From positions 22,241-86,240 of the forward strand of contig WFTQ01000069.1 in NCBI GenBank assembly GCA_015485355.1: a DNA stretch of 64,000 nucleotides, read 5' to 3'. The translations under genes and the position numbers were made by a program. Shown here piece by piece: positions 27,551-28,040 of this stretch; position 1 is the first letter of the stretch; each line of letters starts with the position of its first letter. Origin of the DNA: a bacterium (GTDB lineage Bacteria > Calditrichota > Calditrichia > RBG-13-44-9 > J042). The notes under the pieces were generated by a model, which saw nothing but the letters and a program-made list of their open reading frames with translations, was not told where the DNA came from and made no database searches.

Positions 27551-27937
27551 AGGCTTCGGTCAAGAGAACACCGGCGTGGATATCAATCCCGAGAACGGCC
27601 CCCGGGTTCAGGCGCACCCGGATTATCCCCACGGCCACCGGCACCGTCCCCCTGCCGACAATGTTCCACCCGGGCCTTTCCTCCCATTAGGCTCGATCGA
27701 TCAGTCTTAACCCTTTGCCGAAAATCCCTTGCATCGGAAGCATCTTCCGACGACGGCATCCGGCCCCATGTGCCCGAAGCACGGCCTTCGTTGGTTGAGG
27801 GGCGACCGCATGTCCATGGGGCATTCCATATCGACGGGAACGACCACGCCCTTCCTGCGTGCCCTTTTCTCCAGGACCATTTCAACACACAAGGCTTTTG
27901 GAGAACAAAATCGAAAAAAAACGTAGGAGTTTTCGTA

Positions 27938-28007
27938 TAAATAAACAAGGGACGCGAGCGCGTCCCTTGCGGAGTTGGGAGGGAGGTTTATGACCTTTGC
28001 AGGTCAC
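27938..28007 (-). ncRNA. Candidate trans-acting small RNA with C-rich linker
   Basis: Minus strand: GUGACCU-GCAA-AGGUCA hairpin, UAAACCUCCCUCCCAACUCCG linker, CAAGGGACGC-GCUC-GCGUCCCUUG hairpin then UUUAUUU; promoter at 28012-28040. Confidence 0.55.
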
Positions 28008-28011
28008 TGAT

Positions 28012-28040
28012 AATATAATTGCAAATGTAAATTTTGTCAA
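28012..28040 (-). promoter_or_regulatory. Sigma70-like promoter of the candidate sRNA
   Basis: TTGACA (28040-28035), 17-nt spacer, TATATT (28017-28012) on minus strand. Confidence 0.75.

Follow-up and report, generated by a model that had tools for sequence, protein, structure and literature searches.

A small RNA gene with an invariant C-rich linker, and a second C-rich RNA family, in an order of Calditrichota

The minus strand of the window, by which we mean the whole 64,000-nt stretch of Calditrichota DNA analysed here, almost certainly carries a real gene for a free-standing small RNA of about 68 nt, which we call family A. A preliminary description had proposed a novel small RNA gene at this place, and the proposal is now strongly supported because the promoter, the stems and the linker are kept with compensatory changes, the RNA is absent from Rfam and its gene neighbourhood changes from one group of genomes to another. 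Genome comparison also established the invariance of the linker, a second RNA family with the same C-rich core, family B, and an absence of Hfq matches. Family A is new as a family; the functional class to which it belongs is already known.

Layout and conservation of family A

The promoter, 5′ hairpin, linker and terminator that had been described on the minus strand were each found in place (Table 1), and 14 of the order's 16 genomes share this layout. The promoter scored 11/12 in a promoter scan, tied for the best among nine promoter-like sites in 6 kb, and 5 nt of minus-strand sequence separate its −10 box from the 5′ hairpin. The RNA was predicted to fold into two hairpins with a free energy of −30.2 kcal/mol, compared to −12.0 ± 2.4 kcal/mol for shuffled sequences (z −7.5; 0/200). 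The 21-nt linker between them, also part of the earlier description, is conserved at 27988-27968 and overlaps the base of the terminator stem. Of the 6-bp 5′ stem originally drawn, the 5-bp core GACCU/AGGUC is conserved, whereas a transcript start 6-7 nt past the −10 box may leave the outermost U-A pair untranscribed. In the GC-rich stretch that separates the small RNA from an amylase-like gene, we noted a short reading frame (MVLEKRARRKGVVVPVDMECPMDMRSPLNQRRPCFGHMGPDAVVGRCFRCKGFSAKG) at 27705-27880 on the minus strand.

Table 1. Positions of the family A elements in the window and of the family B RNA in the same genome
Feature	Position	Strand	Basis
−35 box TTGACA	28035..28040	minus	Same in 14/14 homologous loci; promoter scan
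−10 box TATATT, 17-nt spacer to −35 box	28012..28017	minus	TATATT in 9/14, close variants in the others
Predicted family A transcript, about 66-69 nt	27938..28006	minus	Covariance model CM R1 matches in 14/16 genomes; predicted ends
5′ hairpin UGACCU-GCAA-AGGUCA, 5-bp core GACCU/AGGUC	27991..28006	minus	3/5 pairs with two-sided changes
Invariant single-stranded linker AACCUCCCUCCCAACUCCGCA, 21 nt	27968..27988	minus	Same in 14/14 genomes
Terminator hairpin CAAGGGACGC-GCUC-GCGUCCCUUG	27946..27969	minus	5/10 pairs with two-sided changes; terminator scan
Terminator U-rich tail UUUAUUUAUA	27936..27945	minus	Sequence; T-rich run 3′ of the stem in 14/14
Family B RNA, window's own genome	G000:C72:35306-35376 (L179:1501-1571)		Match to the family B model

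When the 60 nearest genomes were searched at the DNA level, the family A unit turned up in 14 of the 16 members of the same order (class Calditrichia), always as a single copy, and matches beyond the order stayed at chance level. The covariance model CM R1 recovered the same 14 genomes with E values of 1e-10 to 8e-18; the two that lack the unit have a completeness of 88% and 62%. Elsewhere in the class and in 386 genomes outside the order, CM R1 gave weak matches only, none of them convincing; the out-of-order sequences that we looked at proved to be ordinary terminators, the 3′ end of a tRNA or chance C-rich matches without the linker. The exact 18-mer of the linker occurs 18 times among 85,462 species genomes, and 13 of these matches are records of the same order. 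Four others (Neorhizobium, Pontibacter, a Chloroflexi MAG and an Ignavibacteria MAG) have no family A architecture and were rejected as chance matches. The remaining one is a 531-bp contig assigned to 'Dehalococcoidia' (HKST-UBA80), which has a promoter-like stretch, a hairpin and, at the contig end, the exact 18-mer; it is probably a misbinned Calditrichota contig. The same isolate prefix occurs in the name of a Calditrichota bin, HKST-UBA06.

Conservation within the 14 loci follows the elements of the gene. The linker AACCUCCCUCCCAACUCCGCA is identical in every genome; the 17-nt spacer between the promoter boxes is near random, with 34% pairwise identity, and the 20 nt 3′ of the terminator show 29% identity. 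The preliminary description had suggested looking in related genomes for compensatory changes in both stems around a conserved linker, and the homologs do show them: together the stems show two-sided changes in 8 of 15 pairs (16 cells), compared to 0-2 pairs and 0-3 cells in slid-partner controls. In the 5′ hairpin core, 97.1% of the cells in the homolog alignment are paired; one genome has its entire first stem swapped (UGUUAGC-GAAA-GCUAACA) and another has GGCC/GGCC in its place. The loop of this hairpin, initially singled out as a GNRA tetraloop, varies among the homologs (GCAA, GAAA, UCCA, UCCG, AUCA, or other loops of 3-5 nt), which rules out the GNRA loop as a functional element. In the predicted folds of all 14 homologs, the unpaired section measures about 19-22 nt and the RNA about 66-70 nt, and the linker portion ACCUCCCUCCCAACUCC has a mean probability of being unpaired of 0.80-1.00. 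No Rfam family reached its gathering score in the window or the homologs; at E values up to 10, only HTH-XRE and cyano_tmRNA appeared, both as chance matches.

A second C-rich RNA family

The complement TTGGGAGGGAGG occurs at 15 sites in the order's 16 genomes, not counting those of family A itself. Four of these are a single locus read on the opposite strand, family B, which consists of a promoter resembling TTGATT-N17-TATATT, a closing stem CAAUGGGGC....GCCCCAUUG, the segments CUCUCCCCUC and AACCUCCCUCCCAA, and a terminator. A model of this family recognised it in 13 of the order's genomes, among them the one from which the window comes (Table 1), and an Rfam search gave no family matches. 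The CCUCCCUCC motif that family B has in common with family A sits in an internal loop, and the stem that holds this loop covaries: 10 of the 11 pairs of the 11-bp closing stem have two-sided changes, and 100% of the cells are paired. The RNAs have two C-rich loops (loci L176-L187) and lie behind the same gene of about 460 aa in 12/12 loci in which that side is present; this upstream gene has no Pfam match. In the genome family f2 the motif reads CCUCCCUCCUU, which contains CCUCCUU, the textbook 16S anti-Shine-Dalgarno (anti-SD) sequence.

More distant RNAs with the family B layout were noted in G008 (L195), G011 (L196, L199 and L202), G012 (L194) and G015 (L193). In these diverged forms the closing stem is a new one, the loops carry CUCCC and CCCUCC, the inner part is rich in A/U, and a terminator follows the same plan. 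Some genomes seem to carry paralogs of family B.

As CCUCCCUCC is open and C-rich on two scaffolds without recognisable common ancestry, this strand would be the working part of both RNAs.

Possible function of the linker

The best explanation of these data, and one we hold to be fairly probable, is that family A works as a C-rich antisense RNA and attaches to G-rich regions of translation initiation without the help of Hfq. Pairing with such regions is the commonest use of C-rich single strands. A strong promoter of the housekeeping type would give rise to an RNA of about 68 nt ended by the intrinsic terminator, and the two short hairpins would guard its ends and keep the 21-nt linker single-stranded. 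The linker, chiefly its CCUCCCUCC core, would then pair with G-rich stretches at or near the ribosome-binding sites of several mRNAs and block their translation without Hfq, in the manner of Yfr1. The targets of family B, whose long stem presents this core in an internal loop, probably overlap with those of family A. The Pfam Hfq model found nothing in the 16 genomes of the order but did match in 5 of 14 control genomes, and the tight end hairpins and C-rich seed of family A are what Hfq-free RNAs tend to have.

In silico, the C-rich linker is accessible and can pair with G-rich sites of the SD type, as in the C-rich small RNA class, and its duplexes reach −13.7 kcal/mol with GGGAGG and −22.4 kcal/mol with GGAGGGAGG contexts. 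Three pattern searches of the order genomes yielded no conserved mRNA target. With the RNA's own sites set aside, the 18-mer complement was no commoner than in a reversed control when up to 3 mismatches were permitted. Sites of the form GGAGGGAGG-N2-11-ATG showed a slight excess (about 43, compared to 31 in the control), and no two of the ORFs downstream of them are homologous. Several of the other matches to the 12-mer complement proved to be coding sequence, in which VGREV/LGREV codons give GGGAGGGAGGTT on their own; this accounts for part of the small excess over the control. These codons (GGG AGG GAG GTT) lie in C-terminal sorting domains (L159, L154 and similar loci) and form a perfect complement of the small RNA core by chance; targeting of these coding repeats by the RNA is unlikely. 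Upstream of ORFs, as delimited by crude start calls, GGAGG was not enriched (11 occurrences and 11 in the reversed control); the counts were 19 versus 11 for AGGAG and 22 versus 13 for AAGGA. Strong GGAGG-type SD sequences look rare in this clade. The trans-acting anti-SD repressor originally proposed is plausible: the accessibility of the linker, its in silico pairing and the recurrence of the motif in a second family speak for it, whereas the lack of a conserved target and the apparent rarity of GGAGG-type SDs do not.

A protein partner remains a serious rival, because no conserved target emerged, GGAGG is not enriched and SD pairing does not account for the AACUCCGC half of the linker, which is invariant too and whose conservation calls for another cause. 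The linker could be bound by a protein with a preference for C-rich single strands, such as a KH-domain or cold-shock protein, which the RNA would titrate or carry. We regard this as rather unlikely on balance, yet the invariance over 21 nt exceeds the needs of short seed pairing, the same CCUCCCUCC recurs on two unrelated scaffolds, and the authors of the Yfr1 study raised the same alternative for the Yfr1 motif (PMC2190773). On the other hand, no protein candidate was identified, and known RNAs of such architecture pair with mRNA (PMC6778093, PMC6974561).

Pairing with an abundant, slowly changing RNA (rRNA, tRNA or a Yfr2-like sponge) rather than with mRNAs is less probable still. An unchanging partner would account for the invariant 21-mer, and Yfr2 does sequester Yfr1 (PMC6778093), but no extended complement of the linker common to the 16 genomes of the order was found, and the second locus brought up by the complement search, family B, carries the motif in sense and not its complement. 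A 16S search gave one partial match in six genomes.

The succession of promoter, hairpin and terminator also resembles an attenuator, and the RNA could in principle be a cis-acting leader of the next minus-strand gene. However, the neighbours of family A are common within the genome families f1, f2 and f3 and differ between them: the gene lies near trmB and recJ in f2 (names read off the protein sequences), after an unrelated operon in f3 and in two different places in f1. The adjacent gene is often on the opposite strand and sometimes convergent, and no association with a same-strand downstream gene, as expected of a cis-regulatory leader, is conserved. In addition, the terminator is complete in 14/14 loci and the predicted folds show no alternative antiterminator structure, which makes a cis-acting role very improbable. 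As its neighbours differ between families, family A appears to be free-standing and its product probably acts in trans, judging from gene context. Lone promoter-like and terminator-like matches are common, but a functionless chance pairing of a promoter with an ordinary terminator is refuted by order-wide conservation with covariation, the invariant linker and the random spacer, and its probability is negligible.

We tentatively envisage an Hfq-less clade with a two-RNA layer, in which families A and B, on unrelated scaffolds and with their own promoters and terminators, present a common C-rich core; the 21-nt strand of family A may have been frozen across the order by a large regulon or by a dedicated RNA-binding protein.

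Relation to known RNAs and meaning for the Calditrichota

C-rich CUCC-type motifs whose binding to SD regions is assumed or demonstrated occur in Cuckoo/CcsR of alphaproteobacteria, RsaE/RoxS, LhrC and FsrA, and in CcsR the motif sits in hairpin loops. Family A also has a single-stranded motif of this type; unlike Cuckoo/CcsR, it is present in one copy per genome, has its own promoter and carries the motif between hairpins. The CcsR RNAs are produced in several copies from a single operon that also contains a DUF1127 gene (for context, see PMC10253847).

The closest architecture is that of Yfr1, an RNA of 54-69 nt conserved phylum-wide in cyanobacteria, in which two stem-loops are separated by 16-20 unpaired nucleotides with an ultraconserved undecamer and the 3′ stem is an intrinsic terminator (PMC2190773). 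In Nostoc, Yfr1 pairs with the ribosome-binding region of two mRNAs and thereby represses them (PMC6974561). Family A likewise has two stem-loops flanking an unpaired section, the 3′ one being a terminator, but the Yfr1 motif 5′-ACUCCUCACAC-3′ is absent from it, all 14 members having AACCUCCCUCCCAACUCCGCA instead, and it belongs to an unrelated phylum and lacks any Rfam match. Similarly, Yfr10 bears the Yfr1 motif in a loop atop a stem (PMC6778093), as family B bears the family A core in the loop of a long stem; Yfr10, however, is poorly conserved in structure and synteny, in contrast to the covarying 11-bp stem and constant neighbour of about 460 aa of family B. Families A and B are thus built like Yfr1 and Yfr10 without being members of those families, as they have a different motif and no model connects them with those RNAs, and the likeness of family A to Yfr1 is likely to be convergence.

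Our literature searches and Rfam yielded no small regulatory RNA of the phylum Calditrichota; the C. abyssi genome paper, in part of its text, reports riboswitches only (PMC5317091). Two strongly covarying small RNA families, one of them with an invariant 21-nt single strand, offer an entry point into riboregulation in a clade for which no Hfq match was found. The pair looks like a convergent copy of cyanobacterial Yfr1 and Yfr10, which makes it testable why short C-rich strands stay frozen for so long.
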